A stretch of 46,450 nucleotides of DNA. It comes from Mycobacterium paraffinicum. GTDB lineage: Bacteria; Actinomycetota; Actinomycetes; Mycobacteriales; Mycobacteriaceae. The position numbers and the translations under genes were made by a program. Shown here one piece after another: positions 20,407 to 46,450 of the stretch (the first letter of the stretch is position 1; every line of letters begins with the position of its first letter). Below the pieces are notes generated by a model that made no database searches, was not told the DNA's origin, and was given only the letters and a program-made list of their open reading frames with translations. The stretch lies in the NCBI RefSeq assembly GCF_001907675.1, contig NZ_MPNT01000041.1:1-46450 (forward strand), written 5' to 3'.

Positions 20407-20407
20407 C

Positions 20408-20816: not shown

Positions 20817-20868
20817 CGCATTGGGCGACAGGGTCTTTCGACGCTGTCTGAGCTTCCGCCCCGTCCTG

Positions 20869-20883
20869 TCTCGCTTTGCGAGA
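20869..20883 (-). terminator. Short hairpin downstream of the minus-strand ESX operon
   Basis: TCTCGC and GCGAGA pair around TTT (read on the plus strand), 13 bases beyond the stop of the last minus-strand gene. It probably assists termination of that operon, together with the larger hairpin at 20777-20816. No T-run. Confidence 0.4.
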
Positions 20884-20896
20884 GAAACGACGTCGA

Positions 20897-21874: not shown

Positions 21875-21896
21875 CGCCTCACCGTATCCACAACGG

Positions 21897-23384: not shown

Positions 23385-24046
23385 CGGCGGCGCCTCCTGC
23401 CGCCGGTGGGGACTTGTTGGCGTGCAGTGCTGGGCTTGTCAGCTACTGCAACCCCGGCTACGGGATGATCCGGCTCCGAGCCGGGTGGTTCATCAGCGTC
23501 AGCGACGACTGCGGGGGTCGCAGCCGGCGCCGACGCTGCTGCGGGTGACGCTGCCTCGGTGGTTGCTGCCAGTGTGCTGCCCTGTTGGGCCAGCACCCGG
23601 GAGAACTGCTTGAGCTGTACCGCCGCGGCTGCCGCCAAGGTGGCGTCGTCGAGCTGGCGCGCCTCCTCGAGCAGGCCCTGCAGAACCGTCAGCGCCAGCT
23701 CCGGCCCGAACCCCACTGTGGCATCCGCGGCGGCGGCCGGTTCCATGCTGCCTTTGTCCACCACCCACGCCAAGCGTTCGCGGCACTCCTTGACCGCCGC
23801 TGCGTGCCGCTCGGCGTCGCGGAGCTCCTTGTGGTGACGTTCCCGTTGTTCGGTCCGCAGGCGGAACCTCTTACCGGCCTGGAGCAGCGCCACCACCGCG
23901 ATCAGGGCCACGATGAGGGCGGCCAATACTGCTGCCGCACCGCCGAACCCACCCGAGACCAGAAAGTCGCGCGCCGGCGGTAACGCCGGCATCCGCTCGG
24001 GCAGCCCGACCCCATCGGCGATGAAAGTCCCTGGCGTACACGACAT
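23381..24046 (-). CDS. Single-pass membrane protein linked to eccE
   Basis: 221 residues. A short N-terminal segment (probably outside) precedes one long membrane helix (about 31-57, FGGAAAVLAALIVALIAVVALL). A basic, charged helix follows (RFRLRTEQRERHHKELRDAER), then a helical domain of about 80 residues (about 85-165), and a Pro/Ala-rich tail ending GGRRRRR. It lies 12 bases after eccE, has AGG upstream of ATG 24046, and overlaps the coiled-coil gene by four bases. Together they may form an anchor and scaffold pair at the ESX complex. Not recognised as any named Esp protein. Confidence 0.75.
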   Translation of the reverse strand: MSCTPGTFIADGVGLPERMPALPPARDFLVSGGFGGAAAVLAALIVALIAVVALLQAGKRFRLRTEQRERHHKELRDAERHAAAVKECRERLAWVVDKGSMEPAAAADATVGFGPELALTVLQGLLEEARQLDDATLAAAAAVQLKQFSRVLAQQGSTLAATTEAASPAAASAPAATPAVVADADEPPGSEPDHPVAGVAVADKPSTARQQVPTGGRRRRR

Positions 24047-24058
24047 GACAAACCTCGC

Positions 24059-27029: not shown

Positions 27030-28444
27030 CACAGGATTCCTCGGTTGCGGATGAGGCTGATCAGACCGATGAGCCACAACATGGCCGGCGGAATCGTGAT
27101 CAGCAGGGCGTTTTCGAACAGGTCCAACCATCGGCGCTGCGGGATGGAAAGCTCGCGCGGTTTGACGGCTGCAGCGCCGAGCAGCACGAGCGTCAAAGCC
27201 ACCACGGCGCCGGCCGCGTACAGGCCAGAGACCAGGTGACCGGCTGCGGTGAACGACACCGCCAACGCGACGACGGTTAGAAACGGGGCTGCCAGGAACC
27301 ACAATGCGGGGATAGCTGAATCCCAGATCCGCATACGCAGCACGGTGACGGTGGTGGTGACCACCACCAGCCACCACGCCAACAGCGGCGGCGCGTCCGG
27401 CAACCACACCACCAACACCGAGCCGACCACCGACAGAATCACCGAGGCCGCGATCAGACCGCTCTGGTAGGAGTTGCACGTCGCCGTCTTACGGGGCAGA
27501 TCTTCCAGTTCGGCCAGCGATGACGCCGCGGGCGTGGGCTCGCCTGGTGCCGGCACATTCGGAAGCGGGAAGCGCGCCCACATCGCTGACACCGTCGGGG
27601 CATTGCTGGCCAACAACAACGACACCGCCAGCACTCCGCACCCCAGGGACAAATACGGCAAATGCCACAGGATGCGGGCGCCGGCGGCGGCCGCGATCGT
27701 TGCCGCCACGGCGACGACCGCGGTGTGAGTGGCCACCCAACTATTGGTGACGGCCAGCAGCAGCAACGACCATGCGACCAGGAAAGCCGCTGCGAGGAAG
27801 ACCCGCGGCGCCGCAGCATCCCCAGGCACTACCGCGGCGCCGGCCAGCGCCAGCGGCGCAGTGGCCACTAGACCCAGGCGTGCAGCGGCGGCTTGCAGGC
27901 CGCGCCGATACAGCCAGAATGTGGCGGCGATGAAGACGACGGCGAGCGCACCCAACACTGCGGCCGACCACACCCGGTAGCCGCGGTGCCAGCCATAAAT
28001 CGCCAGGCCGCACGCTAGGGTCGCCGCGATGACCACTACCACCTGGGCGGCGGTGCGCAACATGGCGTGCTCGAAGGGCTTGAACTGGCTGGCCGAATGG
28101 ATCGCCGAGGCGTCAGCTATGTCTTCGACCACTGGTGGCGCCGTCGGGCCAGGCGGCAGCTTGCACAAGATGAGCTGTTCGCCGTCGTCGATGTTCAGCG
28201 TGGCCAGGGTGGCGTCCAAACTGAACGGTGTTCCCCCGAGTGGGGCCAGCGAGTACGGGCGCAACCCGTCGTCGTTGACGGCATCGGCTGGCACGTCGTC
28301 GTCATCGCGACCCGTGGCCAGTGTTGCGCGGATCCGCGGAATCAGTTCCCTAATGGCCAGTGTGGTCGGCAGGGCCAAGTCCACCGCGGCGTCTTCACCG
28401 ATGATGGCGACGCGGACTTGGCCGGTCGCAGCGGCCGGATCCAT
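27029..28444 (-). CDS. eccD: EccD, polytopic ESX membrane pore component
   Basis: 471 residues. The N-terminal about 95 residues form a ubiquitin-like domain (VRVAIIGEDAAVDLALP, then GGTPFSLDATLATLNIDDGE). The remainder holds about eleven membrane helices, ending LLWLIGLISLIRNRGIL. EccD dimers form the membrane rafts of the EccBCDE hexamer and bind EccC through the ubiquitin-like domain. It starts 3 bases after the espI-like stop, and its stop overlaps mycP. Identification secure. Confidence 0.95.
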   Translation of the reverse strand: MDPAAATGQVRVAIIGEDAAVDLALPTTLAIRELIPRIRATLATGRDDDDVPADAVNDDGLRPYSLAPLGGTPFSLDATLATLNIDDGEQLILCKLPPGPTAPPVVEDIADASAIHSASQFKPFEHAMLRTAAQVVVVIAATLACGLAIYGWHRGYRVWSAAVLGALAVVFIAATFWLYRRGLQAAAARLGLVATAPLALAGAAVVPGDAAAPRVFLAAAFLVAWSLLLLAVTNSWVATHTAVVAVAATIAAAAGARILWHLPYLSLGCGVLAVSLLLASNAPTVSAMWARFPLPNVPAPGEPTPAASSLAELEDLPRKTATCNSYQSGLIAASVILSVVGSVLVVWLPDAPPLLAWWLVVVTTTVTVLRMRIWDSAIPALWFLAAPFLTVVALAVSFTAAGHLVSGLYAAGAVVALTLVLLGAAAVKPRELSIPQRRWLDLFENALLITIPPAMLWLIGLISLIRNRGIL

Positions 28445-28447
28445 CGG

Positions 28448-30025
28448 TCAGAAACCCCCAGTTTCAGTCGTGCGGTGCTGATGCGGCCCACGGGCGGGAT
28501 AGTGCTGAGCGATCGCGCCGGCCAACGCCATTAGGGCCTTTCGGGCTCGCGATTTGAGTTCAACGAAGGTGACATCGCGCCCCTCGGCGAGGTGGACATC
28601 GTAGGGGATCCTGACCACGCTCACACCCGGGATCTTGGCGGTGAACTCCTGTTCGGCGTCATCGAGGTCCACCAGCGGCTTGTTCTTGAACGTCGAGTTC
28701 AACGCGATCACCGTGCGGGGCAACAGGCGCGCGAAACCGTGCGCCTGCAGCCACTGGATGGTGGTCCAGGCGCCGTTAAGGCCGTCTGGGGCTTGAGAGG
28801 ACACCACGACCAGGCTGTCGACGTGATTGGCGATGGTGGAAAACAGCGGTGATGTGATCGCCGTGCCGCAATCGAGCAGGATGACGTTGTAGTGCTTCTT
28901 CAGGATCTTCATCGTCGCTTCGAAGTCCTGCGTGTTCAACGTGTAGGAGGAGCGCGGATTATTCTGGGCGCCAAGCATTTCGAGGCGGTCTTTGTTCTGC
29001 ACGGTGAAGGTTGCGACTGTTGGATAACTGCTGGCGTCCTGCAGCGACGACAACGCCTCGATGTTGGCGTCGGCGCCGCCTTTTTGCTCGAACCGCGACG
29101 AGAGGTTGCCGAGGTCGGTGTCGACGTCCACGGCGATCACCCGGTCCCCACGCTCGCGGGCGATCGCGCTGCCCGCGGCGACGGTCATGGTCGTCTTGCC
29201 CACGCCACCCTTGGCGCTGACAAACGCCACCACGTAGACGTCGAGCAGCGGTGCGGTGATACTGCGGATGAGCTTGTCGTGCTCTTCTTGCTTGGCGCTG
29301 GGCCCGGGCGTGATGAGCCCGAAGGTCATTTGCGACACCAGCTTTCGCCAGCCCTTGCCTACCGGTCGGCGCCGCGAGGTGACGAACTGTTGGCCTTCGT
29401 CAAGCGCGCCGTAGCCGCTGGGCGCGAACGCTCCCGGTGAGATTGGCTGGTCGCCGAACAGGGGCTGGTGCGGGTCAGCGGCCGGCGGCTGCGAGGGCGG
29501 GGTCGAAGGCCAGCCCGCCGGCAGGTGCTGCTCATGCGGCTGCGGCGTGTCACTGAAAAAGCCGTCGAGGCCTTGCTCGTGCTGCGGGGGCTGGCCGCGG
29601 TGCGCGGCGATTTGGTCGAGTGAGATCTCGGCGGTCTTGTCGCTGGATGCCTCGTCGCCGGGCTGCCAAGCTGGATCCGGCTGGCGCGGTTCGGTATTGG
29701 GGCGCGCCGGGTCAGGCAGCTTGAACGTTGGCGCCCCGTGCGGGGCTGCATGTTGTGGCCGCGACGGCGGCGGGGCTGGCGCGCGGGTCGGTGGAGGTGG
29801 CAGTGGCTGATGCGGCGCCTCGGCGCCCGGAGTAGACCCCTGGTGAGGGGGCGGTGCCGCCGGCCACCGCACACGCTGGCCTGGCCCGGTGTCCGGTCCG
29901 TTGCTGGGCTGCCTGCCGTCCTCCTGGGGGGCGGCCCCAGAAGGATAGGGGTAGCGCTGGTCTGAGGTGGGCTGCTCGTGGTGGGGTGTGTCGTCTTGGG
30001 GGAAGGAATCAGAAGGTGTGCTCAT
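28448..30025 (-). CDS. espI: EspI-like MinD/ParA-type ATPase with Pro-rich N-terminus
   Basis: 525 residues. Residues 1-210 are Pro/Gln/His-rich and disordered. Residues about 262-515 are a MinD/ParA-type domain with deviant Walker A KGGVGKTT (272-279), Walker A-prime VDVDTDLGNLSS and Walker B VILLDCGT. This is the layout of EspI of ESX-1, which also stands immediately before eccD; there it down-regulates secretion when ATP is low. ESX-3 lacks such a gene, so its presence here is an ESX-1-like trait. It follows espG by 33 bases. It is distinct from the two partition ParAs further right. Confidence 0.87.
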   Translation of the reverse strand: MSTPSDSFPQDDTPHHEQPTSDQRYPYPSGAAPQEDGRQPSNGPDTGPGQRVRWPAAPPPHQGSTPGAEAPHQPLPPPPTRAPAPPPSRPQHAAPHGAPTFKLPDPARPNTEPRQPDPAWQPGDEASSDKTAEISLDQIAAHRGQPPQHEQGLDGFFSDTPQPHEQHLPAGWPSTPPSQPPAADPHQPLFGDQPISPGAFAPSGYGALDEGQQFVTSRRRPVGKGWRKLVSQMTFGLITPGPSAKQEEHDKLIRSITAPLLDVYVVAFVSAKGGVGKTTMTVAAGSAIARERGDRVIAVDVDTDLGNLSSRFEQKGGADANIEALSSLQDASSYPTVATFTVQNKDRLEMLGAQNNPRSSYTLNTQDFEATMKILKKHYNVILLDCGTAITSPLFSTIANHVDSLVVVSSQAPDGLNGAWTTIQWLQAHGFARLLPRTVIALNSTFKNKPLVDLDDAEQEFTAKIPGVSVVRIPYDVHLAEGRDVTFVELKSRARKALMALAGAIAQHYPARGPHQHRTTETGGF

Positions 30026-30058
30026 CGCTTCGGTTTCTACTTTCGGGTTGGTAGAGGG

Positions 30059-30892
30059 TCAGATACTGAAGTTTTCGTCGGGGAACCACGATCCCGAGGG
30101 GAGGCGCTCGGTCAGGTCGCGCACCGCCATGGCGATCGAAAACGGTTCAGCGGGAGCGAAAATGGACACCCCGCCGGCACGTGGCTGCCCAGGCGTGGGG
30201 CTGACGAGGATCTGCCCGACCTCAGTGCTGATGATGTTGACACTGACATCGGTGTGATGGTGAGCGCCGTTGGTGGCCTCATGGGCGGTCAGTTCGACGG
30301 TGATGCGATCGCCAGCACGGGCCACTTCCATGATCTCGGCTTCTCGTTCGGGGATGCCCAGCTCGATGAGGGCTTCCATCAAGTCAGCGCCACGGGCGAC
30401 GCGGTCGTCGAGCGCTTTGCCGGTGTCCATCGGCAGTGAGAACTCCTCGAAGCGAGCCGGCGGCTGATCGGGGGGCAATCCCGCGGTGATGATCGGCACG
30501 ATCGCTTCGCTGTGGGTCACCTGCATCGGCGTGAGCGTCACCATCTGCGCGTAGCGCAGCGCGACCACGGCATCTGGCGGTGAGGTGCGCGCCAGCACCC
30601 CCCGCAGAATCTGTTCGGGGTCGATCATGGTGCGCCATTCCAGCCACTGGCGCGGCTGACATACGGTCTTAACCGACTGCGCGACAGAGGGTTTGATGTC
30701 CCCGTCTGCGTCAATGACGCCGGCCTCAGCCAGCTCCGCAAGGCAGCGCTGGTTGAATGGTTCCCGCTCCCCTGGATCGACATAGGGGGCGGTGATCGCC
30801 AGCATCCACGGATAGGCCCCCACGCGCAGGTGGTCGGCGAGAAACCAGGCCTGGTGCGCGTCGACCTCGACCGCGTCGTACCTAGTCGTCAT
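30059..30892 (-). CDS. espG: EspG, cytosolic PE/PPE chaperone
   Basis: 277 residues from ATG 30892, chosen because GGAG stands 9 bases upstream; ATG 30907 would add five residues. EspG features are visible: an N-terminal strand-helix (VEVDAHQAWFLADHLRVG), a central sheet with helices, and a C-terminal repeat of the same half-fold (RITVELTAHE, PFSIAMAVRDLTERLPSGSW). EspG binds the hydrophobic tip of the PPE partner and hands it to the ESX machine; the PPE at 18702 has a well-kept tip. It overlaps the preceding RHH gene by 11 bases, so their expression is tied. Confidence 0.9.
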   Translation of the reverse strand: MTTRYDAVEVDAHQAWFLADHLRVGAYPWMLAITAPYVDPGEREPFNQRCLAELAEAGVIDADGDIKPSVAQSVKTVCQPRQWLEWRTMIDPEQILRGVLARTSPPDAVVALRYAQMVTLTPMQVTHSEAIVPIITAGLPPDQPPARFEEFSLPMDTGKALDDRVARGADLMEALIELGIPEREAEIMEVARAGDRITVELTAHEATNGAHHHTDVSVNIISTEVGQILVSPTPGQPRAGGVSIFAPAEPFSIAMAVRDLTERLPSGSWFPDENFSI

Positions 30893-31112
30893 CAGCACCG
30901 TCTCCATCGGTGGGTAGCTTGGCTTGCTCCAATTCGGTTAGCACAGGTTCCAGGGCGCGCTCGACGATGAACGACATCGATGTCGTCCAGCGTTTTTCTT
31001 GAGCCCGAAGGCGTTTGAGGGTCCGCCGGTTGATCCGGATCGTGGTCGGGACCTTGTCGTCCTGGGCGAGAACGCGGGCGCTCAACTCCCGTACCAGGTC
31101 TGATTCAGCCAT
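30882..31112 (-). CDS. Ribbon-helix-helix DNA-binding protein heading the minus ESX operon
   Basis: 76 residues. The segment VPTTIRINRRTLKRLRAQEK reads as a beta strand plus helix, and MSFIVERALEPVLTELEQ as the second helix: an Arc/MetJ-type ribbon-helix-helix. AAAGGGG precedes ATG 31112. As first gene of the operon with espG, espI and the rest, and next to a control region with several small palindromes (31178-31192, repeats 31305-31380), it probably autoregulates the operon. A role in partition or copy control is the alternative. Confidence 0.78.
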   Translation of the reverse strand: MAESDLVRELSARVLAQDDKVPTTIRINRRTLKRLRAQEKRWTTSMSFIVERALEPVLTELEQAKLPTDGDGADDD

Positions 31113-31674: not shown

Positions 31675-31689
31675 TAGAAAGGAGTGCTC

Positions 31690-33330
31690 GTGGCCCAGAC
31701 GACAGCCCGCCCCGCCCGCCGAGCCAAGCCAGCCGGACGCAAAACCGCCAACCGATTCGCGATGCTGGCCGGCGGAGACACCGCACCAAGCACCGACCCC
31801 TCCCCCGCTACCGACTCCGCGGCCTCGGAGGAAGGCACCGGCCTTATCGCGGGCATGTCAGCCATAGTCGCTAACGAAGCGCACCGGGTGGTCCAGATCC
31901 ACGTGGCCGAGATCGCGCCGCACCCGTTCAACGATCCCCGGCGGTCACAGCCGCAGCCCGGCGATCCCAAATGGGAAGAACTCCTCAACGGCGTACGTGC
32001 CAGCGGCGTACGGCTGCCCGTGCTGGTGGTCACCCGCGAGGCGTTCATGGCGGCGCGGCCATCGACCGCCGACAGCGCAACCGATGCGCGCTACGTACTG
32101 GTCTACGGTCACCGCCGACGCATCGCGGCGATCGAAGCCGGCCGAGACACCGTCCCGGCCGTCGTCGACGACGCCATCATGGTCGACGACGGCGATCTGG
32201 ACGCGATGGCTACCGAAAACCTTGGCCGCCAAGACCTCTCCGACCTTGCCGAGGGCGAGTTGTATGCGCGCTACTCAGAGATCGGACTGTCCCAACGCGC
32301 GATTGCCGAGCGGCTGGGCGTCGATCAAGCCACCGTGTCCCGCAAGCTCGCACTCAAGCTGCTGGCTCCCGAAGTCCGCGACGCCGTCGACGACGGCCGG
32401 CTGCCCAGCGCCGAGGCCGCGGCCTTGGCGGGCAAGCTGCCCTACGGCCCGCCTCGGCGCTGGCAGAAGACCAAGGACCCCGATCAGCTCAGCGACCTGC
32501 GCCACAAGGAACAAATGCAGGCCCTGCACCTGATCCTCACCCGTGGGATGATCGCCACCCGCGCCGCCGAGCGGGTCATCGCCGAGCGCACTGCCCGCGC
32601 CAAGGCCGACGAGTTAAGGATCCCCCTCGTCGAGGACCCTCGCGCCGAACTTGGCGAGAACTACCAACTCCACCGCGTCGCCGACTACGAGCCCGATGCA
32701 GAGGTCATCGGCGCCATCAACCCAGCCTCAGGCGCCCTAGATCTCTACGCACGGCACCTCGCCGGTGAAGAGTTGACGTCGACGACGTCGAGCATCGGCG
32801 ACGCGGCCGCCGCAGACCCACCCGATCAGCCGGGCGCTCCTGAAGTCCTCGACCCGCCAACCGAATCGGATGCACCCCCTCCCCGAGAAGAAACAGACCA
32901 GGATCCAGGCCAAAGTGACGAACCGACTCCGGACGCCGCCCAGCGACAGGCAGACGCCCAGGCCGCGGCCCAGGCCCAACGCGCAAGGCGGGAATTCTGT
33001 GCGGTACTGATCAATCAGCAGCCATCCAACGCCGAGCTCCTCAAGATTCTGGTGGCTCAATACCTGTCCGGTGTGGCCGCGCGCAGCGCAACATCAGCGG
33101 TAAGCGCGCTGCTACGGGACTGGGACGCCACCGCTGACGGCCCAGCGGAGAAGGCGCGAAACGCCCGGGCCTGGCACCGGGCGGTGGCCGCGGCTGAACT
33201 CCACACGGCGGAACTCAAAGACAAGGCCTGGGACGACGACGCCGCCGCCCACGTCAACCTGCTCATCAACCGAGCCGGCTACCAACCGACCCCATGGGAA
33301 CGCCGCCAGCTCGAGGCCGCCGGCGCCTAA
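31690..33330 (+). CDS. parB: ParB-family partition protein (long form)
   Basis: 546 residues from GTG 31690, five bases after AAAGGAG; an upstream in-frame GTG at 31684 overlaps that site. The N-terminal CTP-binding ParB domain holds GHRRR (about 140-144) and ENLGRQDL. A helix-turn-helix follows (about 199-221, LSQRAIAERLGVDQATVSRK), then a linker domain. After an acidic Pro-rich stretch (about 365-425) a C-terminal helical domain of about 110 residues replaces the short dimerisation domain of usual ParBs. It should load at the palindromes on either side of its own gene. The order parB before parA is the reverse of most partition operons. Family secure. Confidence 0.9.
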   Translation: MAQTTARPARRAKPAGRKTANRFAMLAGGDTAPSTDPSPATDSAASEEGTGLIAGMSAIVANEAHRVVQIHVAEIAPHPFNDPRRSQPQPGDPKWEELLNGVRASGVRLPVLVVTREAFMAARPSTADSATDARYVLVYGHRRRIAAIEAGRDTVPAVVDDAIMVDDGDLDAMATENLGRQDLSDLAEGELYARYSEIGLSQRAIAERLGVDQATVSRKLALKLLAPEVRDAVDDGRLPSAEAAALAGKLPYGPPRRWQKTKDPDQLSDLRHKEQMQALHLILTRGMIATRAAERVIAERTARAKADELRIPLVEDPRAELGENYQLHRVADYEPDAEVIGAINPASGALDLYARHLAGEELTSTTSSIGDAAAADPPDQPGAPEVLDPPTESDAPPPREETDQDPGQSDEPTPDAAQRQADAQAAAQAQRARREFCAVLINQQPSNAELLKILVAQYLSGVAARSATSAVSALLRDWDATADGPAEKARNARAWHRAVAAAELHTAELKDKAWDDDAAAHVNLLINRAGYQPTPWERRQLEAAGA

Positions 33331-33360: not shown

Positions 33361-33385
33361 CGGGTGATGCATGCTGCATCACCCG
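33361..33385. promoter_or_regulatory. parS-like palindrome between parB and parA
   Basis: Two perfect 11-base arms (CGGGTGATGCA and TGCATCACCCG) surround TGC. The core of eight bases in each arm is identical to the site at 31573-31591. It lies 30 bases after parB and 23 before parA, so it could serve as both centromere and parA operator. Confidence 0.7.
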
Positions 33386-33408
33386 CCCCACGCCAAAGGA
33401 GATTATCG

Positions 33409-34287
33409 ATGTCCACTTATACCGTCGCCAACATGTCTGGCAGCGTCGGGAAAACGACGACCGTCGTGACCACCGCCATCCAGCTCGCAGGCTCTGGCCT
33501 GCGGGTGCGCGTCATCGATCTCGACCCCCAAGCAAACGCCAGCACCTGGCTGGGCTACCCCGACATCAGCGGTGTGACCATCGCCGACGTACTGCGCCAG
33601 CAAGCCACAATCGACGACATCGAACGGCCCGCTCGCATCATCCAGGGTTTCACCGACGCCGGCGAACCCGAATACGCCACCGACGAGGCCACCGAAATGC
33701 ACATCGGCAACCTGACGGTCGTGCCCGCCGCCCGCTCGACGCTGGACAAACTGATGGTCGAACTACCGGCCGTGACCGGAGGCGTACTACGCCTGCGGGA
33801 TGCCCTCGAAGCCGCCACTGCCGTTGACGTCACCCTCATCGACTCCCCCGGCTCCAACAGCGCACTAGTCACCACGGCACTGATCGCATCCTCAGTCGAC
33901 GAGGACGGCCCTTCCGGCGGATGGGGACTGATCACCTGCACCAAGCCAGCAGGCAAGGAATCCGAAGGCATCCAGGCACTGCTGCAAGAACTCGCGATCA
34001 TCAAAAAGACCTTCAGGATCGACATCCCGCTCCTGGCCATCGTGCCGTGCGCCGTGCCAGGTACCGGCGGCGTGTACCGCGAACAGATGGAGTACTTACA
34101 GGAAGGTTTCGGTGACAAGGTCACACCGGCGGTCCGACGCAGCTCGATCGTGGATGAGGCCTACACCAACTACCTTCCCGTCCCGTTGTACGGATACCGA
34201 GCCAAAGACGTCAGCAAAGACTACGAGAACGTCATTAACCACATGAAGCGCCAAGGAATGTTCCGCCCAGCAGCCATCAAAGCCTAG
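33409..34287 (+). CDS. parA: ParA-family ATPase with altered Walker A
   Basis: 292 residues from ATG 33409 (AAAGGAG eight bases upstream). ParA fold: N-terminal VANMSGSVGKTTTVV, then RVIDLDPQANAS (Walker A-prime), then DVTLIDSPGSNSALVT (Walker B). The usual deviant Walker A KGGxGKT reads S10-G-S-V-G-K15-T. The signature Lys that contacts the partner nucleotide in the ParA dimer is therefore Ser, while the P-loop Lys15 remains. It could bind ATP but may dimerise differently. It follows parB and a large palindrome and is followed by a small RHH-like gene 4 bases later. Partition role likely. Confidence 0.88.
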   Translation: MSTYTVANMSGSVGKTTTVVTTAIQLAGSGLRVRVIDLDPQANASTWLGYPDISGVTIADVLRQQATIDDIERPARIIQGFTDAGEPEYATDEATEMHIGNLTVVPAARSTLDKLMVELPAVTGGVLRLRDALEAATAVDVTLIDSPGSNSALVTTALIASSVDEDGPSGGWGLITCTKPAGKESEGIQALLQELAIIKKTFRIDIPLLAIVPCAVPGTGGVYREQMEYLQEGFGDKVTPAVRRSSIVDEAYTNYLPVPLYGYRAKDVSKDYENVINHMKRQGMFRPAAIKA

Positions 34288-34525: not shown

Positions 34526-35284
34526 GGCGCGCTGACAGCCCCGCCGCCCCGCCCTGAGCGGTCGGGCTCATGCGGCGACGCCGCGCGCGACGCGACACTG
34601 GCGTCACGTTGCTAGCCTGACTGCGCACCGCTACCGCATTCAAGAACCCGGGCTGATCTCGTGTTACCTCATGAGAATCCGAAGCCGCGACTCTTTGCTC
34701 CGCGCCGCATCGGGAAACGAGGGACGGTGAAGGTCTCTCGCCCCGCGACCGGCTCCCCCACCGCCGCACCCCAAATAGCCCATGTGAACTGCGATATCCG
34801 GGCGATGACCGGACAACAAGACGTGTGAATCGCGGGCGTTACACCGGATAACGCGCGGGCCATCAACGGGTGACTGCCGGCCCTATGTGCGGATCTGCGT
34901 ACGTGGCAGTGACGCCTGTGGTGCCGGGTCTAGCACCGCATCATTGTCGGCTGACCGACGCGTTGCCGCACGCACGGACAACGCACGTATGCCCGTACGG
35001 CGCAACGCCCAACTACCCGTACGGCCCACCGCGTGATCACTCGCGTGAACACACGGCGGTCGCAACGCTCTAGCGACCACCCGCGCACCCGTGACATGGC
35101 CCGGGCGCGCAGACGTCCGAATTGACGGCAGCAGAGTGCCGCGACCACACGGGCCGGTCGCCGCCCGTGCCAACGGGCGAAGGATCGTCGGTCGAAACGT
35201 CCAAATAGTGGGCTAGGTAACGGTTCGACTTCACGTCCGTGCGCCTACATGACATCTCGCGGGTGGGTACGTACGTTGCGACGC
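34526..35284. other. Long non-coding region between the two partition modules
   Basis: About 760 bases with no convincing gene. Visible are two copies of palindrome CCGTACGG (34993-35000 and 35017-35024, 24 bases apart), further GTACG motifs near 34898 and 35268, and the inverted pair CACGGGC/GCCCGTG (35148-35154 and 35163-35169). This could be a second centromere, an origin, or oriT; nothing decides between these. Confidence 0.55.
34992..35024. repeat. Two direct copies of CCCGTACGG
   Basis: Identical nonamers, each containing palindrome CCGTACGG, with starts 24 bases apart (34992 and 35016), about 260 bases before the second parA. The spacing is a little over two helical turns, so a dimer of dimers could bind both on one face. 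Candidate binding sites for the protein at 36214. Confidence 0.45.
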
Positions 35285-36217
35285 ATGACAATGACTGGGC
35301 CCGATGCGCGGGCCATCCTCGTAGCGAATCAGAAAGGCGGAGTTGGAAAGTCAACGACCGTCGCCGCGGTGGCGGAAATGATCGCCGCCGCGGGGAAAAG
35401 GGGCCGTCGCGTGCTCGTGGTCGACGGCGACCCACAGGCCAACGTCACCGTCGAAGATCTCGGCGTCGACGGAGACCGCGGGCAATCGCTGGCCCAGACC
35501 CTGCAATTCGGTGCGCCCCTTGTCCCGGTTCGCAACGTACGGGCCAATCTCGACGTAGTCGCCGGCGGTCCACAACTTGCCGTCGTCGGCGCCGGCGCCC
35601 ACCTGATGGCCGAGAACGGCATTGACATGGCCGCCAACCTGGAAAACCAGCTCGCCAAACTATGCGAAGACGAGGGCTATGACCTGGTCCTCATTGATTC
35701 GGGTCCAGGTGACGTACCGCTGCTCGACACCTATCTCACCGTCGCGAACTATCTGTTGATCCCCACCCGCGACGACCAAGCCAGCCTGGGCGGTGTCGAA
35801 CGGCTGGCGCGCCGCTTCTGGCGCGCACGCAAACTTGGTGCCTCCATCCAGCTTCTGGGTGTGCTGCTGTTCGATGTCAACCCACGCGCGAAGAAGCGTA
35901 ACCAGGACGTGTTCGATCAAGTGAGCGAAATGCTCGAAGGCAGTGGGACAACGCCGTTCGACATCACGATCCGATCCGCGCCCGCGGCTGCCGTCGACAT
36001 GCGAACGCTGCACAAAACCGCCGGCGAACTCGTTGCCCTGGCCAATGACGACCGCCGAGCTCGATTGTCGAAGCTGCGCGACAACCAAAGTCCCGAGCGC
36101 GCCATGTGGACAAGTGACCCCACCGGTCTTGCCGCCGACTACCAGGAGCTCGTCCGCCAAATCGTCACACGACTCGGCCGATACGAATCTGCCACGGCGG
36201 GGGAGCGCGTCGGATGA
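35285..36217 (+). CDS. parA: Second ParA-family ATPase
   Basis: 310 residues from ATG 35285; ATG 35249 would add twelve residues, and neither has a clear ribosome site. A canonical deviant Walker A is present (NQKGGVGKST, signature Lys17), then VLVVDGDPQANVTVEDLG, then LVLIDSGPGDVPLLD. About 40 percent shorter in linker segments than EspI and clearly different from the ParA at 33409. Its stop overlaps the next gene by four bases. With its partner it forms a second partition cassette, or a MinD-like positioning pair for the transfer or ESX complex. Confidence 0.88.
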   Translation: MTMTGPDARAILVANQKGGVGKSTTVAAVAEMIAAAGKRGRRVLVVDGDPQANVTVEDLGVDGDRGQSLAQTLQFGAPLVPVRNVRANLDVVAGGPQLAVVGAGAHLMAENGIDMAANLENQLAKLCEDEGYDLVLIDSGPGDVPLLDTYLTVANYLLIPTRDDQASLGGVERLARRFWRARKLGASIQLLGVLLFDVNPRAKKRNQDVFDQVSEMLEGSGTTPFDITIRSAPAAAVDMRTLHKTAGELVALANDDRRARLSKLRDNQSPERAMWTSDPTGLAADYQELVRQIVTRLGRYESATAGERVG

Positions 36218-39536: not shown

Positions 39537-39929
39537 ATGACTGCCACCGATCCGACTGTCGCGTTGATTCAGGCTGCTGCACAACGGGAATCAGGAAGTT
39601 TTGCCTCAAAGATGGCTGATTCATCCTTGGCGGCCGCAGTGGACGTGTGGCTGCGGCGCGTAGCCCGGCGCAAAGCTACACCCGCGCAGCGTGCACGGCT
39701 GGTCAAAGCTGTAGAGCGGGCCAGCTCGGCCGAGACCAAGGCGGTGCAACTGACCCGCGCTGCGCTTTTGCGGGCCGCTGGCCTGGATGAGCGGCCGGCC
39801 GCGGCAGCGGCGATCGCGGCCGGCGCCACATACACCGAAGTCGGCGCGGTCCTCGGCATGACCCAGCAGGGGGCCAGCGCGCGCATCCGTCCCTACCTGG
39901 CCGCGCGTGCGTCCGAAGGCCGCTTATGA
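39537..39929 (+). CDS. HTH protein heading the telomere-type operon
   Basis: 130 residues, helical. The C-terminal part contains a sigma-like helix-turn-helix (GATYTEVGAVLGMTQQGASA, then RIRPYL). The N-terminal half is charged helix with two basic segments (WLRRVARRK, RARLVKAV). It overlaps the large Tap-like gene by four bases (ATGA), so both are made together. Likely the operon regulator or a DNA-binding accessory of the replication complex. Confidence 0.75.
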   Translation: MTATDPTVALIQAAAQRESGSFASKMADSSLAAAVDVWLRRVARRKATPAQRARLVKAVERASSAETKAVQLTRAALLRAAGLDERPAAAAAIAAGATYTEVGAVLGMTQQGASARIRPYLAARASEGRL

Positions 39930-42900
39930 CGGATTCAAGCACCGCGTCGCTAGTAGTTGAGCGTCACGTCGTGATTGTGACCGGCGCGGGTGCGTTCACG
40001 GTCAGTGGCGACGTACTTACCGGACCGGTTGACTCCATCGACAAGCTCGCGAAATTGATCGAGTGGGCACACGACAGCCGTGGCCTACTGCAATCGATGC
40101 CCACAGGTGATGCCGATGTTGACCCTGCCCGGATATGGGTAGTTGGTGCGGGTTGTCGTCAATTGATTACCCCCAACCCCGACGTGGGGGATTCCCCCGG
40201 ACTATTCGAGCAACTAGGGCAGTCGTTGGCGCCGCTGGTAGGGCGCGGCTGGGAGCTGCGTCAAGGTAAGGGACATACGGTCGTGCTGGCTCGGGGAGTT
40301 GGGGCGCACCGTGTTTCGGTGGAAATCGTGGCCGAGATGCATCCCTGGTTGGTCGGTGAGCGCGACGATCTGGTCGAGGACGCGGTCGAGCTGGGGCGCC
40401 GCCTGCAGCGGTGGTCGTCCGTGCTGGGAGCACTGCCCGCAGGCAGTGGAGCGGCCTCGGCGGCGGCGATCAACGACCGCATCATGCGGGCGCGCGCCGG
40501 GCGCCGGGGGGCCATCGTGTCCAGACCCGGAGTGCTGCCGGCGCACGTTATGGCCGAGATTCGCATTCAGCCGCTGTGGTGCGCGCCTGCGTCAGAGGTC
40601 GAAGAGGAGTTCGAGCACAGCGATCAGCTGGTGTGGCTGGCCCAGGAATGCCCACAGCTGGCGGCCGCGGGAACCTTAACGTTCGGATACGGTCAACCTC
40701 AGGTCCTCGACGGCATAACTGCAGCTGCGGCCGGCGCCGCACAGAAGCGGCCATTCGGCTTGTGGCGCGTCACGCTCCCAGCGGCTGGTGACTTGCAATT
40801 GCCCCAGATGCTGCCGCCGCCTCACCCACAGATGCGCCTGGATGCGCCAACCCAGGCCTGGGTGACCACCGAGGATCTCGACGGGCTAGCCAAAGACGTC
40901 CGGGACGGCGGCGCCGCGCTGCCCGCAACTGGGCTCGGCATCGAGCAGGCGATCGTGTGGCCCCAGCACAGTCGTCTGCTGGAAGCGTGGTCGACGCGGC
41001 TGCGCGAAGCCCGGGAAGAGTTCGCCAACGATGCGCCACTGCGGGCGCTCGTCGATTCGGCCGCCGCGGAATATCTGCAGGCCCTGGCCAACCCCGAACC
41101 GTGGGCTCATCCAGCCTGGCGACAGCACTTCCAGCCCGCGTGGGCCGCGGCGATCGCCGCGCGTGTCCGATTCCGTGGCCGCCGAGCAGCGATGCGGATC
41201 TCGCGCGAATACCGGCTGTGGCCGCTATATGCGCGCGATGCCGCGATGATCTATGCGACTGGCCCCGACGAAGCGACTGGTGAGCCAATTGATCTGTCCG
41301 ACACCCATTCCCGACTGGGACGCATGAGGGTGACCCACCGGGCGCCGGTGACCGACGAGCTCATCCTCGAGGTCCTGACCGCGGAGAACACCGCCGAGGT
41401 CGCCGCTGCGCTGAGCGCTGCGCTCGAGGGCCACGACCAACGAGCGCCTGCCGCCGTCGCGCCCGAAGTGGAAGCCAGCGATACAAGGGGTGTGGAGAGC
41501 CCGGCATCGGAAACCCCTGCTGTGGATGCTGACCAGAGGCCCCTCGACGAAGCGTGGCCGACATCCGAAGGATCACCAGCCAACAAAGATTCGACGCCGG
41601 CGCCGGCGACCGCCGGGACTCAATCTGGCCGCACCTCGAACAGAACCGTATCTGTCGGCGCGCCGGCCGCGGTCCTACACACCGATGGGCTCTGGCTCGC
41701 CGATGGCACCCGGATCGAACTCGCCACACCGATCGTGCACGTCGGCCAGGTCGCCGAGCTTGCCTACACGCACCATCTCGGTTACCACCTGACTGCGAAA
41801 TATGCTGAGCCAGGCCAAATCTGGATCACCGAAGCGGCGTGCCAGGAATTCGGTATCGACGTCGAGGCCATTAGTCGCCGAGATCGCGCCAAGTCGCTGC
41901 GCCAACTCACCGAAAACATCGACTTCGTCACCGGCGCGGTCAACGAAGGATGGAGCCTGGGCGGGGCGGGGGAGGACCCTAATGCTCACCGGCTGGGCAC
42001 CTGGACCCGCGTCTACCGAGACGATAAGCGCGGTGTAATGATCGCACTGATCCCCGGGATGGGCACCGGCGCGGATGAGATGCCGATCCTGTCTGACGAA
42101 CCCACACCAGGCCAGATCGCTAAGCGGCTGCAGCTGCTGGCTGACGCGTTGCGGTTCCCGTGGAAAATCAACGCCGGTGTCACCGCGGTGGACTTGATGT
42201 TGCAGACCAGAACCAAGACGTGGTCCCCGCAGGAGTGGCGCGACGTTGTCTTCGCGCCGTCGACCACCGCGCCGCCGTTCGGTATCGGAGATGTGGAATC
42301 GGACTTCGATTGGTCACGCCCACCCACTAGCGACGAACGCCAACGTCGCTACATCCACGCCTATGACCGTGGCGGCTCCTATGTGGCCGGCATCGCCGGT
42401 CTGGAACTGCCCATCGGCGACCCAGTCCATCACCCCGACGGGGCGCCGTTTAACGCCAAGACACCGGGCTACTGGCTAGCCGAGATCCCCGAAACCAGCG
42501 ACTGGCGGCTGCCCTACGTTCTCAATCCGAGAGGACTGCAATTCACCGGCCCCAAGTGGGTGTGCACCCCGACGTTGGAGCGCGCTATCGAACTCGGCTA
42601 CCAGCCCCAAATTCTGGAGGCATGGCTGTGGCCGCGCCACGGCCGGGTATTGCTCGGCTGGTATGAACGGTTCCGCGACGCCAGTGCGATGCTGGACATC
42701 GACGATCCCGATGCTCAAGCCGCGCGTGATCAAGCCAAAATCATCCGCACCCACGGCATCGGCATCATCGGCTCCGATGAGCACCTCAAAGGCAAACCCG
42801 CCTACAGCCCCGAACGGCGGCTGCACGTACTCGCCAAAGCCAAGGCCAACATCGTCTACCGGCTGCACCAAATCGGTGAGAAGACGGGGCAGTGGCCCTT

Positions 42901-43138
42901 GGCGGTGGCCACCGACACGGTCCTCTACGCCTCCGATGACCCGGATCCGGTGACAGCCTGGCCCGGTGGACCAGAGTCGTTTGGCCGCGGCTTCGGGCAA
43001 TACAAGCCGGAAGGCTCTGGGCTGCTCGACGAGCACCTCGAGCACCTCAACGGACGTGACTACCGCGGCAAACGAGACTTGATCCCCGCCCGTCAGTGGC
43101 GCGCCAATCCGCTCACCGACGCTGAGGGCAGCCGCTGA
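39926..43138 (+). CDS. tap: Tap-like protein with divergent family-B DNA polymerase palm
   Basis: 1070 residues. Residues 1-530 are an unassigned alpha/beta region; 530-585 a linker. The C-terminal half (about 590-1070) contains three polymerase-B-like motifs in order. Motif A-like is Y813-D814-R-G-G-S-Y819, followed by LELPIGDP, very like the DVNSLYP...LLPYGEP of protein-primed phage polymerases. Motif B-like has K938 with G946 eight residues on. Motif C-like is A-T-D997-T-V-L-Y. Streptomyces linear replicons use Tap with terminal protein Tpg to patch telomeres, and tap precedes tpg there as here. It overlaps both neighbours by 4 and 1 bases. Palm motifs are seen; the Tap name is inferred from them and from gene order. 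Replication initiator is the alternative. Confidence 0.7.
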   Translation: MTDSSTASLVVERHVVIVTGAGAFTVSGDVLTGPVDSIDKLAKLIEWAHDSRGLLQSMPTGDADVDPARIWVVGAGCRQLITPNPDVGDSPGLFEQLGQSLAPLVGRGWELRQGKGHTVVLARGVGAHRVSVEIVAEMHPWLVGERDDLVEDAVELGRRLQRWSSVLGALPAGSGAASAAAINDRIMRARAGRRGAIVSRPGVLPAHVMAEIRIQPLWCAPASEVEEEFEHSDQLVWLAQECPQLAAAGTLTFGYGQPQVLDGITAAAAGAAQKRPFGLWRVTLPAAGDLQLPQMLPPPHPQMRLDAPTQAWVTTEDLDGLAKDVRDGGAALPATGLGIEQAIVWPQHSRLLEAWSTRLREAREEFANDAPLRALVDSAAAEYLQALANPEPWAHPAWRQHFQPAWAAAIAARVRFRGRRAAMRISREYRLWPLYARDAAMIYATGPDEATGEPIDLSDTHSRLGRMRVTHRAPVTDELILEVLTAENTAEVAAALSAALEGHDQRAPAAVAPEVEASDTRGVESPASETPAVDADQRPLDEAWPTSEGSPANKDSTPAPATAGTQSGRTSNRTVSVGAPAAVLHTDGLWLADGTRIELATPIVHVGQVAELAYTHHLGYHLTAKYAEPGQIWITEAACQEFGIDVEAISRRDRAKSLRQLTENIDFVTGAVNEGWSLGGAGEDPNAHRLGTWTRVYRDDKRGVMIALIPGMGTGADEMPILSDEPTPGQIAKRLQLLADALRFPWKINAGVTAVDLMLQTRTKTWSPQEWRDVVFAPSTTAPPFGIGDVESDFDWSRPPTSDERQRRYIHAYDRGGSYVAGIAGLELPIGDPVHHPDGAPFNAKTPGYWLAEIPETSDWRLPYVLNPRGLQFTGPKWVCTPTLERAIELGYQPQILEAWLWPRHGRVLLGWYERFRDASAMLDIDDPDAQAARDQAKIIRTHGIGIIGSDEHLKGKPAYSPERRLHVLAKAKANIVYRLHQIGEKTGQWPLAVATDTVLYASDDPDPVTAWPGGPESFGRGFGQYKPEGSGLLDEHLEHLNGRDYRGKRDLIPARQWRANPLTDAEGSR

Positions 43139-43857
43139 TGGCGCGCCGAGGCAGACGACGCAGCCAAATCAGTGCCAGCGACCTGGCGGGGTACGGCTCG
43201 GTCGCTAACGGAACGGTCGACATCGACCGCGCCGCACGGGGCTTGGGCGCATCCAAACGCGATGTCCGCCAGGCGATCCGGCAAGCACAAGCAGCGCAAA
43301 GCAACACGTTCTTGCGGCGGATTTCAGGCCGGCGTGAGGCTGACTCCGCAGAGGGCAACAGCATGCGAGGCATGTTGCAGGCAGTGTTCGGCCGGGGCCC
43401 GCGTGGTGGGGCAGTCAACGCCAGAGCCGCCGCGCAATCACTCGGAGTTTCCCAGGGCACCGTACGACGCTGGGCCGCCGGCACCCAACAACCGTCGAAG
43501 GGCAGACTGGCGTCGATCCGGGCAGCAGCGCGGCGCATCACGACGACCAAACGGGGTCGACGAGGGACCACGGCGGACTTCCGCAGCAGCACACAAGGCA
43601 GGCAGGCGCTTCGCACTGGCAGCAAAATCTGGGTCAGCGGTGAGCAAGGCGTGGGCGGCTACGACCAAGGGTATGCGCGCGATCGCCGCGTGGCCAACGA
43701 CATCAGTCCCGAAGAGATCGAAGCCCTGTTGCGCGCTTATGAGGACGGCGGCGATGAGGGCCTTCGAAAGTGGATGAAAGAGTTCTTCGACGACAAGTAC
43801 GTCGCTGGGTGGGACTTCGTCACTATCGACGATTTCGGTATCGGTACCCCTGAATGA
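43138..43857 (+). CDS. tpg: Tpg-like terminal-protein candidate with HTH
   Basis: 239 residues, overlapping the Tap-like stop by one base. A basic N-terminus holds one HTH-like segment (DIDRAARGLGASKRDVRQAI). A clearer HTH follows (about 95-118, ARAAAQSLGVSQGTVRRWAA), then an Arg/Lys-rich stretch, then GEQGVGGYDQGYARDRRVA, a helix pair (SPEEIEALLRAYEDGGDEGL) and the ending WDFVTIDDF. The order HTH, basic segment, TG/RF-type loop, helices and a final FTDIDF-like strand is that of Streptomyces Tpg (about 185 residues); this one is longer at the N-terminus. Tpg is covalently joined to 5-prime telomere ends and primes end patching. Resemblance is by eye; an ordinary DNA-binding protein is the alternative. 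Confidence 0.6.
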   Translation: MARRGRRRSQISASDLAGYGSVANGTVDIDRAARGLGASKRDVRQAIRQAQAAQSNTFLRRISGRREADSAEGNSMRGMLQAVFGRGPRGGAVNARAAAQSLGVSQGTVRRWAAGTQQPSKGRLASIRAAARRITTTKRGRRGTTADFRSSTQGRQALRTGSKIWVSGEQGVGGYDQGYARDRRVANDISPEEIEALLRAYEDGGDEGLRKWMKEFFDDKYVAGWDFVTIDDFGIGTPE

Positions 43858-44534
43858 GCCTGCCAGCCAAAGCAATACGGCCCACCGCTGGCCCCCGGTG
43901 GAGCCGCAAAAGACTCATCGGCATGCTGCTGGACTGTTACGGCGCCACCGCGCGGAACACCGTCGACGCGGCGGCGGTCGCCGCGTATGCCGGTGTCACA
44001 CCGTCCACCGTTCGGCGCTGGATCTCCAAGCGACACCCGCCATCTCGGCGTGTGGCGATCCCCAAACATCGGATCGCGCAACTGCAACGCGGTCCCGCCG
44101 ATGTCGAGCGGCGCAACGACCAGCAGTATCGATACGCGCTCAATGCGCTCGCATCGATCGAGGATGAGAGCGCAATCCTGCCGGCCTGGCGCGAACAAGG
44201 CTGGCTCGACCCGCACACCGTGGCCATCATCGCCATTCACGCCAAGCCCTGGCTGCAAGTCGCCGTCACCAACGCCAGCACACGGGCATTAGGGGAACTG
44301 CGACGCCGGGGAACGCTAGTTGCCAGCCGGACGGTGCCGACACGATTTCACGCCCAAGTCCTGGCCCACGCCGTGATGGTCCGTCAACAAGCATGGCGAG
44401 TCCACCCCATACCGCGCTATCTTGCTGCCGGCCGTACACAAGCCTGGATGGCAGACGCGCCCCCGGTCGACCTCGCCGCGCTGGCGGCTGAACTGGGAAT
44501 TGCGCACCCGGCCTCCGACCAGAACCCCGGTTAG
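43854..44534 (+). CDS. Second HTH protein of the Tap/Tpg-like operon
   Basis: 226 residues, overlapping the previous gene by ATGA. The HTH DAAAVAAYAGVTPSTVRRWI (about 40-59) closely resembles that of the Tpg-like neighbour, including the TVRRW end and a following basic Pro/Ser segment. The rest is helical with Trp-rich positions (AWREQGWLDPHTVAIIAIHA, VMVRQQAWRVHPIPRYLA) and lacks the FTDIDF-like ending. Probably a related DNA-binding partner rather than a second terminal protein. Function unknown. Confidence 0.7.
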   Translation: MSLPAKAIRPTAGPRWSRKRLIGMLLDCYGATARNTVDAAAVAAYAGVTPSTVRRWISKRHPPSRRVAIPKHRIAQLQRGPADVERRNDQQYRYALNALASIEDESAILPAWREQGWLDPHTVAIIAIHAKPWLQVAVTNASTRALGELRRRGTLVASRTVPTRFHAQVLAHAVMVRQQAWRVHPIPRYLAAGRTQAWMADAPPVDLAALAAELGIAHPASDQNPG

Positions 44535-45538: not shown

Positions 45539-46348
45539 ATGCAACCTGTGCGCGACCTGATCACCAGAATCCGAACTCGCTTGCCCCGCCGCGCCGCCAC
45601 CGGCAGGCTCGCCGATGTTCACATGTGGATGATCCGGGACGGGTGGACCTCACGGGCCCAGGCTTTCCGTGATGAGGCCGGCCGAACCTTCGCGGTGATC
45701 ACCCGCCGCGCTGGTGACATCGGGCCCGGACACATCAATGGCGCTGAGCTGTTCCGCGCCGACGCCTGGGCCCAGTTTTTCCCCGATGAATCGGCACCGC
45801 CGATCCTGATCGCCAACGTCCTCGATCCACGCTTCAAGTTCGAGGAGTCCCCGCAGATCGTGACGCTGGACTTCAACGTTGACGGGATATTCGACCGCCA
45901 CCACGCCACCGACCCGGCCGACATCCAGACTTTGAACCGGCTCGGCGCCGAATGGGACGAAGGAGCCGACTTCGTCCCCTATACACCGCCGCCGCCCAAG
46001 TACGCCGTTGTGTGGCGACGATTCCCGGTTAAAGACCTCCCGCCACGACGCCTCTTTCGCGATATGCACCCCTTCATGGCTGCGGACTGGGGCAAGGCTG
46101 TGCAAGTCGCCATCCAGGCCATCCGCAACGGCGGTGACATCACCGACGAGGTCACACCCAACGTGGCCTCCGCTGCGAAAACCTTGCTATACGAATCGAT
46201 CGAACTCGGCCGCAACGCAGACCACGTCTGGTACGTCAACGGCCAGCACCGCACCGAAGCAATGTTGCGCCAAGGCGTCGAAGAAACCGTCCTACGAGAG
46301 ACGAGGCTCATCGCCGAACCGCCGGTCACGTCCCGTGGAGTGGTGTAA
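45539..46348 (+). CDS. Hypothetical protein with NGQHR (ParB/Srx-like) motif
   Basis: 269 residues from ATG 45539 (a GTG at 45509 is also open). It has a basic N-terminus (RDLITRIRTRLPRRAATG), then strands with conserved-looking aromatic residues (MWMIRDGWTSRAQAFRDEAG), a Pro-rich middle (about 150-160), and a C-terminal part containing WYVNGQHRTEAMLRQGV (N234-G-Q-H-R238). The (D/N)GQHR motif belongs to ParB/sulfiredoxin-like domains such as those in DndB or ParB nucleotide-binding folds. The rest of such a domain is not obvious, so function stays open. No clear ribosome site. Confidence 0.65.
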   Translation: MQPVRDLITRIRTRLPRRAATGRLADVHMWMIRDGWTSRAQAFRDEAGRTFAVITRRAGDIGPGHINGAELFRADAWAQFFPDESAPPILIANVLDPRFKFEESPQIVTLDFNVDGIFDRHHATDPADIQTLNRLGAEWDEGADFVPYTPPPPKYAVVWRRFPVKDLPPRRLFRDMHPFMAADWGKAVQVAIQAIRNGGDITDEVTPNVASAAKTLLYESIELGRNADHVWYVNGQHRTEAMLRQGVEETVLRETRLIAEPPVTSRGVV

Positions 46349-46387
46349 GAGCATTCGCGTGTTCGCGTGAGGCTCTGCGGTTGTTCA

Positions 46388-46450
46388 CTATGCCGTGAGA
46401 GCTGCTGTGGGGGCAATCGTTTCGGCGTTCTTGTCGCTGGCGTTGAGGAG
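46388..46450 (-). CDS. C-terminal end of an unidentified gene (partial)
   Basis: Read from the right edge, the minus strand gives LLNASDKNAETIAPTAALTA and TAG, with G+C-rich third positions, 40 bases beyond the convergent plus-strand gene. Too short to identify. A plus-strand GTG start at 46395 (VRAAVGAIVSAFLSLALR, signal-like) competes for the same bases. Confidence 0.35.
   Translation of the reverse strand, partial: LLNASDKNAETIAPTAALTA

Follow-up and report, generated by a model that had tools for sequence, protein, structure and literature searches.

A candidate Tap/Tpg-type telomere operon, with a predicted phi29-type polymerase fold in Tap, on a probably linear ESX plasmid of Mycobacterium paraffinicum

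Among the closest described systems is the Tap/Tpg pair of Streptomyces linear replicons, in which Tap deoxynucleotidylates Tpg in vitro (PMC4513846) and Thr114 is the priming residue of Tpg (PMC3572947); papers are cited here by their PMC identifiers. Linear ESX plasmids as such are already known in mycobacteria. The pS2b-type (ESX-P5) plasmids of M. avium are linear, carry type VII and type IV secretion genes but no relaxase, have repeats of about 415 bp, and show gel evidence for protein-capped ends, with the terminal protein reported as unknown (PMC12803027); Tap and Tpg are unmentioned in the main text of that paper. Plasmid pCBMA213_1 is likewise linear, with a type VII secretion system and 145-bp terminal repeats (PMC7478629), and its main text names no terminal protein or telomere. 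Such terminal repeats occur in only 6 of 34 nontuberculous-mycobacterial plasmids filed as linear (PMC11877719). Here we describe a four-gene operon with homologues of tap and tpg in a stretch of 46,450 nucleotides of Mycobacterium paraffinicum DNA (contig NZ_MPNT01000041.1, hereafter the window). Our analysis suggests that it very probably serves end replication and capping on a linear mycobacterial ESX plasmid, probably a protein-capped one (invertron-type). By description, both the pS2b-type plasmids and pCBMA213_1 resemble this plasmid. The initial annotation of the window knew of no description of linearity combined with ESX and type IV-like secretion genes for pRAW-type plasmids; in mycobacteria, the combination is on record in these published plasmids.

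The operon consists of the following genes.

39537..39929, + strand: hth1, first gene of the operon, encoding a small protein of 130 amino acids (open reading frame; helix-turn-helix, HTH, without Pfam support)
39926..43138, + strand: tap-like gene, 1070 amino acids (NCBIfam telomere_Tap, Rhodococcus homology)
43138..43857, + strand: tpg-like gene, 239 amino acids, candidate terminal protein (Rhodococcus homology, NCBIfam telomere_Tpg)
43854..44534, + strand: hth2, HTH protein of 226 amino acids (Pfam HTH_17, 6.4e-4, below the cut-off)

All four overlapping genes proposed in the initial annotation are present as open reading frames at these positions, and each gene overlaps the next by 4, 1 and 4 bases in turn, stop codon over start codon, an arrangement that would fit a translationally coupled operon. 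These are not chance frames, because 218 homologues of Tap were found (120 of these listed) and the four genes keep their order in M. triplex, M. tilburgii, M. vanbaalenii JOB5 plasmid unnamed1 (NZ_CP126902.1, 183,415 bp), M. adipatum pMYC1 (NZ_CP015597.1, 252,568 bp) and M. chimaera ZUERICH-2 unnamed 2 (NZ_CP015269.1, 154,060 bp). A homologue of hth1 adjoins tap, at 76-95% identity, in these five and in the genomes G261 and G280; some relatives of hth1 are annotated as 'Fis family'. The HTH character originally ascribed to these products stands in part. Pfam gives weak HTH matches below the cut-off in the 239-residue Tpg-like protein and in the 226-residue hth2 product, and no HTH match in the 130-residue hth1 protein. 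The hth2 product may be a paralogue of Tpg, as the two are matched by BLASTP with an E-value of 2e-4 (34% over 89 columns) in the HTH region common to both.

The gene order tap then tpg, as in Streptomyces, is borne out by homology to NCBIfam models and to proteins of Rhodococcus and of Arthrobacter plasmid pAL1, and the two homologues are adjacent in one operon. Tap matches NCBIfam telomere_Tap with an E-value of 1.7e-39 (136 bits; curated cut-off 600) and the Tpg-like protein matches telomere_Tpg at 7.7e-4 (19.5 bits; curated cut-off 90). In the plasmid collection, residues 579-1061 of Tap are 57.9% identical to a 'telomere-binding protein' of Rhodococcus jostii RHA1 plasmid pRHL2, and the product of the next pRHL2 gene is 36.3% identical to the Tpg-like protein over 98%. 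The best Rhodococcus proteins, some of them named terminal protein, reach 36.3-36.7% over the same coverage. On pRHL2, which is linear, the two genes occupy the stretch 5.5-11.6 kb from its left end, whereas the operon-to-end distance in mycobacteria ranges from 0.2 kb to more than 100 kb. The left end of pRHL2 starts with the palindrome core pair GGCTGCGCC and GGCAAGCC, as in M. triplex. In all, Tap matches 489 plasmid records, 441 of which are from Streptomyces or Rhodococcus; no Tap relative was found in the viral contigs searched. Rhodococcus holds some of the closest non-mycobacterial relatives, and pAL1 reaches 41% for Tap and 31% for Tpg; their Tap proteins are longer, about 1700-1790 amino acids. 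Two Tap-like proteins of Rhodococcus, P0113 and P0097, measure 1769 and 1792 amino acids, and one has a weak N-terminal match to a DnaG-type zinc ribbon (E 0.0078). Streptomyces differs in the other direction, with Tap proteins of 709-746 amino acids that carry an N-terminal HTH (four Taps), whereas the mycobacterial Tap of 1070 amino acids carries the degenerate N-terminal copy described below and its operon has four genes. Telomeric palindromes, seen at the ends of relatives of the window's plasmid, are a trait in common with the Streptomyces system.

Analysis of Tap reveals the following elements.

39971..41263, + strand: N-terminal half of Tap, residues 16-446, degenerate duplicate of the polymerase half (hhalign)
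41648..43120, + strand: C-terminal half of Tap, residues 575-1065, predicted phi29-type family-B polymerase fold
42356..42382, + strand: polymerase motif A, HAYDRGGSY, Asp814 (profile alignment to phi29-like polymerases)
42737..42763, + strand: polymerase motif B remnant, Lys938...Gly946 (aligned to Kx3NSxYG of phi29-like polymerases)
42908..42928, + strand: polymerase motif C, ATDTVLY, Asp997 (aligned to DTD of phi29-like polymerases)

The predicted structure of the C-terminal half is closest to phi29 polymerase among family-B folds and has motifs A, B and C in the same register. The structural alignment pairs model residues 16-506 with residues 3-524 of the 572 of phi29 polymerase and, unlike in phi29, no Tap residues align beyond that point. 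The catalytic aspartates of motifs A and C, characteristic of protein-primed family-B polymerases, are both present. The aspartate of motif A is found in 58 of 58 aligned Taps (152 of 153 by BLASTP) and that at the position of Asp997 in 58 of 58 (147 of 149 by BLASTP), while the lysine and glycine of motif B are kept in all 58. The alignment of the window's C-terminal half was built with 52 chosen of 158 Tap homologues. These Asp, Lys and Gly positions are common to four Streptomyces Taps as well. An early guess that AKANIVY represents motif B was dropped, since the profile alignment places the motif at Lys938-Gly946. The two halves of Tap match each other by hhalign with a probability of 96.9 (E 1.9e-10 for one comparison); in the N-terminal copy of the window's Tap, motif A falls in an alignment gap and an alanine stands opposite the motif C aspartate. 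The family-B polymerase character proposed for the 1070-residue protein is therefore upheld by fold and profile, though no Pfam polymerase model matches in ten Tap proteins and a sequence search of Tap against the PDB gave no match.

Several results speak against this reading of Tap. It lacks the first aspartate of DTD as well as the NSxY part of motif B, so that the full motifs are absent, and in hhalign comparisons with profiles on both sides Tap reaches a probability of only 19.5 of 100 against phi29-like polymerases (P 0.0012). Adding Streptomyces and pAL1 sequences to the profile lowers this to 13.6 (P 0.0021), and against phi29 alone it is 0.4 of 100 (P 0.16). Because only the lysine and glycine of motif B and the second aspartate of DTD are kept, we call Tap phi29-type in fold and not a standard family member. 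It could be argued from the loss of these motif residues that the fold is an inactive scaffold and that Tap merely tethers Tpg, the bond being made by host DinB or DNA polymerase I. This agrees with the earlier view of Tap and with the requirement for DinB1 or DinB2 in Streptomyces end patching (PMC4513846). Nevertheless, we consider such a tether unlikely, as the aspartates at the catalytic positions are almost invariant in the C-terminal half but not kept in the N-terminal copy of the window's protein, and as Streptomyces Tap is reported to carry out the in vitro deoxynucleotidylation of Tpg cited above.

According to published accounts, Streptomyces has no gene for a B-family polymerase (PMC4513846), and polymerases of the B and X families are typically absent from Actinobacteria (PMC12926913). 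The available text of PMC7544198 has no mention of telomere, Streptomyces, linear plasmid, actinobacteria or terminal protein. In the literature searched, most subscription journals lying outside it, we did not find Tap named as a family-B polymerase, and the predicted phi29-type fold of Tap would be new to that extent. The Streptomyces Tap is reported to make short products only. On balance, we favour the view that Tap is an overlooked protein-primed family-B polymerase of actinobacterial linear chromosomes and plasmids, that Tap and Tpg represent a phi29-type pair reduced to short end patching, and that in mycobacteria the gene was doubled and its N-terminal copy died. In the same reading, which we hold to be probable, the pair supports a group of linear ESX plasmids, several perhaps hidden under circular records, that have no recognised relaxase and are possibly led into the recipient by the terminal protein.

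The operon is embedded in a gene block that is shared with relatives. In M. triplex contig C2, tblastn reveals the order eccA-eccB-eccC-PE-PPE-esx-eccE-mycP-eccD-MinD-like-espG-parB-parA-hth1-tap-tpg-hth2; 21 of 27 window proteins are matched in this stretch (from eccA), 19 of them at 90% or more (Tap at 90%) and the others at 82% and 70%. The JOB5 plasmid has the common order from eccC on (16 proteins, 49-82%), with annotated eccB, eccA, a FtsK/SpoIIIE gene and an 'ATP-binding protein' beyond eccC; tblastn gave no match on it for the second parA-like gene of the window. At the nucleotide level, window positions 29.6-44.9 kb are collinear in pieces with DNA of M. colombiense, M. triplex and M. 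arosiense, mostly at 87-92%, with lower identity (75-79%) at 37.0-39.3 kb. The block and a telomeric end occur together on the M. triplex contig, and contig C3 of G280 (218,299 bp) carries a telomere, hth2 (in opposite orientation), tpg, tap, hth1, parA, parB and eccC on a single contig.

The ends of these relatives carry the evidence for linearity. The JOB5 and ZUERICH-2 plasmids are both filed as circular, and both have a common series of hairpin palindromes at both record ends, in inverted orientation. ZUERICH-2 has an exact terminal inverted repeat of 847 bp after skipping 5 bases at one end, and the inverted repeat of JOB5 shows an ungapped identity of 94% over 50 bp and 81% over 200 bp. 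The palindrome series is also present at the left end of the linear Ca. M. methanotrophicum record (282,730 bp), with a diverged series at the right, and a related end is located at the left of the linear M. aubagnense record (99,865 bp), whose right end stops inside open frames. Palindromes or inverted repeats are thus found at both ends in JOB5, ZUERICH-2, M. tilburgii and Ca. M. methanotrophicum, and telomeric palindromes at one contig end or more in M. triplex, M. colombiense, G249, G261, G280 and M. aubagnense.

The smallest relative is a 19,595-bp contig of M. tilburgii MEPHI, present twice (L085 and L086) as exact reverse complements. It has an exact 190-bp inverted repeat at both ends with palindromes of the telomere kind inside, and contains parB, parA, hth1, tap (72.6%), tpg (84.9%) and hth2, the last gene match stopping 218 bp short of the end of the contig. 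For ESX, matches are limited to fragments of eccA, eccD and the MinD-like gene. The contig looks like a complete miniature linear plasmid with eroded ESX genes, and this minimal replicon implies that par, the four-gene operon and the telomeres persist longer than the genes for secretion.

A search pattern made of two palindromes a fixed distance apart, written after viewing the ends of W01 and W03-W05 and single-motif matches in G001 and G002, matched 7 places when 396 genomes of the genus were searched; these lie in 6 genomes, all within 80 bases of a contig end; the reversed control pattern of the search tool itself was found at 0 places. As G284, judged by length and sequence, holds the same plasmid as W04, independent finds are only G249, G261 and G280 (4 places). 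Tap is present in all six pattern-positive genomes, in five on the telomere contig, compared with 3 of 61 pattern-negative genomes (Fisher P 8e-7 for all six and 4.8e-4 for the three independent ones). The 61 are the first listed, G006-G066, of 390; G003, G004 and G005, in which Tap was known beforehand, stand outside this comparison. The three Tap-positive genomes among the 61 are G018 (29% identity), G035 and G039, in the last of which Tap lies at coordinates identical to those of pMYC1.

A number of observations count against assigning the operon to a telomere system of a linear plasmid. The Tap and Tpg scores both lie under the NCBIfam curated (equivalog) cut-offs; this bars the name equivalog, not homology, and we assume that the models are centred on the Streptomyces type. 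The priming Thr114 of Streptomyces has no clear counterpart in the Tpg-like protein, where the region aligns unreliably. In 94 sequences (the window's, listed homologues of 225-280 amino acids, Rhodococcus and pAL1), T108 and T137 are invariant and S151, Y179, Y201 and Y221 are mostly kept, Y179 being tyrosine in 84; T137, S151 and Y179 are candidates for the priming residue. The Tpg alignment itself comprises the window's protein and 50 chosen of 120 listed homologues. The AlphaFold2 model of the Tpg-like protein (pLDDT, predicted local distance difference test, 91.2) has no match in the PDB with E below 0.001; its better partial matches are HTH domains, and no phage terminal protein is among the 50 listed structure matches. 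No telomere is present in the window, where a search with the telomere 14-mer at 2 mismatches gave 1 match against a chance mean of 1.4. Only 7 of the 12 analysed genomes known to be Tap-positive have a telomere at a contig end (six with the strict pattern, and M. tilburgii), the five without being G004, G005, G018, G035 (of which only the first contig end was viewed) and G039. In G005, contig L036 has one such palindrome near its start and L035 an internal match only. Finally, pMYC1 carries the operon and is filed as circular, has no match to the telomere 14-mer with up to one mismatch, and ends its record within open frames.

These points could be taken to mean that the window plasmid is circular and that its operon is a relic, or has been converted into an ordinary replication or regulatory module. 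The circular filing of pMYC1 without a telomere motif, and Tap-positive G004, G018 and G035 without the strict pattern, favour this. However, pMYC1 matches the JOB5 arm piecewise at 75-89% identity, interrupted by an insertion of roughly 20 kb and lacking one JOB5 stretch, and leaves collinearity only 297 bp from the JOB5 end (pMYC1 about 232,925), where unrelated DNA with an ABC transporter begins, a pattern suggestive of telomere loss. In Streptomyces, damaged linear replicons can lose their telomeres and circularise, and pMYC1 looks like a derivative that lost a telomere and was then closed; it is also possible that it is a chimeric assembly. Moreover, JOB5 and ZUERICH-2 are filed as circular too in spite of their telomeric ends, and the M. 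triplex relative, with a Tap of 90% identity, lies on a contig with a telomere end. A circular window plasmid is therefore quite improbable, and from its relatives we infer with high confidence that the plasmid is linear.

That the palindromes are simply dispersed repeats that break short-read assemblies is hardly credible: hairpin-rich DNA can halt assemblers and many of the genomes are drafts, yet the palindromes, read inwards from the end, keep a constant order and spacing, they point outward at either end in JOB5, ZUERICH-2, M. tilburgii and Ca. M. methanotrophicum (right end diverged), and none of the seven strict matches is internal to a contig. Folding of the DNA gave z-scores of -2.7 to -6.6 in 12 of 13 telomere ends and -1.3 in one, but one of five internal controls (L034:4001-4150) reached -5.3, and folding by itself thus does not set telomere ends apart from other DNA.

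The M. chimaera AH16 plasmid of 437 kb, described as 'putative linear' (PMC12803027) and listed as circular in PLSDB, was considered as a further telomere-bearing relative and rejected, as its record ends have no such palindromes and it shows only a partial match to the N-terminal half of Tap. This match, at 75000-75689 of NZ_CP012886.2, belongs to a 663-residue frame.

By analogy with Streptomyces, replication would begin at an internal site of the plasmid, and its telomeres would be left with 3' overhangs. Tap may bind the folded overhang, and its C-terminal half, phi29-type and without a visible thumb, may attach the initial nucleotides to a hydroxyl group on the Tpg-like protein; for this step, fold and active-site residues come from prediction and conservation, and the reaction from the published Streptomyces Tap/Tpg assay. 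Tpg would remain on the 5' end as a cap while host polymerases complete the patch. The degenerate N-terminal half of Tap probably serves binding or a dimer-like architecture, and hth1 and hth2, as constant partners, are perhaps regulators or telomere-binding cofactors. The sequence of the miniature M. tilburgii relative indicates that the operon and parAB were kept with the telomeres when the ESX genes decayed.

The remaining features of the window are as follows.

1997..4750, + strand: FtsK/SpoIIIE-type ATPase gene, candidate DNA-translocation gene (Pfam FtsK_SpoIIIE, 2.6e-7)
10521..30907, both strands: ESX (type VII) locus (Pfam EccA, EccB, EccE; synteny with annotated JOB5 genes and M. triplex)
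+ strand of the ESX locus: eccA 10521, eccB 12413, eccC 13991, PE/PPE 18355-20021, esx pair 20116-20750
24059-30907, - strand of the ESX locus: eccE, mycP, eccD, MinD-like gene, espG
31684..33330, + strand: parB (NCBIfam parB_part, 6.6e-17)
33364..34287, + strand: parA-like ATPase, syntenic in relatives (97.7% identity to M. triplex, 77.9% to JOB5)
35249..36217, + strand: second parA-like ATPase (Pfam AAA_31, 1.5e-24)
46323..46450, - strand: edge of the window, IS1245-like and no telomere (about 86% identical by megablast to IS256-like elements of the IS1245 family)

In JOB5, a gene with a FtsK/SpoIIIE domain likewise adjoins the ESX locus; a gene of the same plasmid at 84555-85550 is annotated as non-homologous end-joining DNA ligase. 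The right edge of the window resembles IS1245-family elements, a place at which breaks in draft contigs are expected. The window ends are not replicon ends, and thus the topology cannot be read from the window itself. The linearity proposed in the initial annotation is accordingly not visible in the window and is supported by sequence in close relatives with the same block; the suggested inspection of contig ends met the IS1245-like sequence in the window and palindromes and repeats in the relatives. The initial annotation saw no circular Rep gene, and no Rep protein was recognised with Pfam among 19 window proteins, but this says little, given that the window covers only part of a plasmid and some frames were left unscanned. 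Rfam gave no match over the window, and the region 36.8-46.4 kb showed no conspicuous terminal repeat or iteron array. Beyond the second parA, two stretches (37652-38143 and 36982-37603) are 82-83% identical to M. chimaera AH16, where no gene is annotated, and to small M. avium plasmids, where a hypothetical protein is; they are a possible candidate for the replication origin.

The plasmid shares ESX, FtsK-type ATPase and par genes with the pRAW type. Unlike pRAW-type plasmids, its relatives are linear, with no relaxase recognised on the records searched. No TrwC relaxase was found on five Tap-bearing plasmid records, and no PF03432 relaxase on those of JOB5 or ZUERICH-2; these searches concern the records of relatives, the window being only part of a plasmid. 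A TrwC match is present in G001 and G004, on contigs other than the tap contig. The circular topology of the pRAW type is not found in the relatives, with pMYC1 as the exception. The pRAW-type label of the initial annotation is hence not retained, as the relatives are not typical of that type.

Within the literature searched, the tie of Tap/Tpg and a telomere signature to mycobacterial ESX plasmids appears to be new, as do the apparent telomeric ends of two plasmids filed as circular. If the reading of Tap is correct, it would qualify the statements that Streptomyces has no B-family polymerase (PMC4513846) and that Actinobacteria typically have none (PMC12926913). Mycobacteria would gain a candidate terminal protein, a candidate polymerase and a telomere signature for recognising linear ESX plasmids, and no fewer than two plasmids with circular records end in telomeres. 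The finding also raises the question of how transfer works for ESX plasmids on which no relaxase is recognised.

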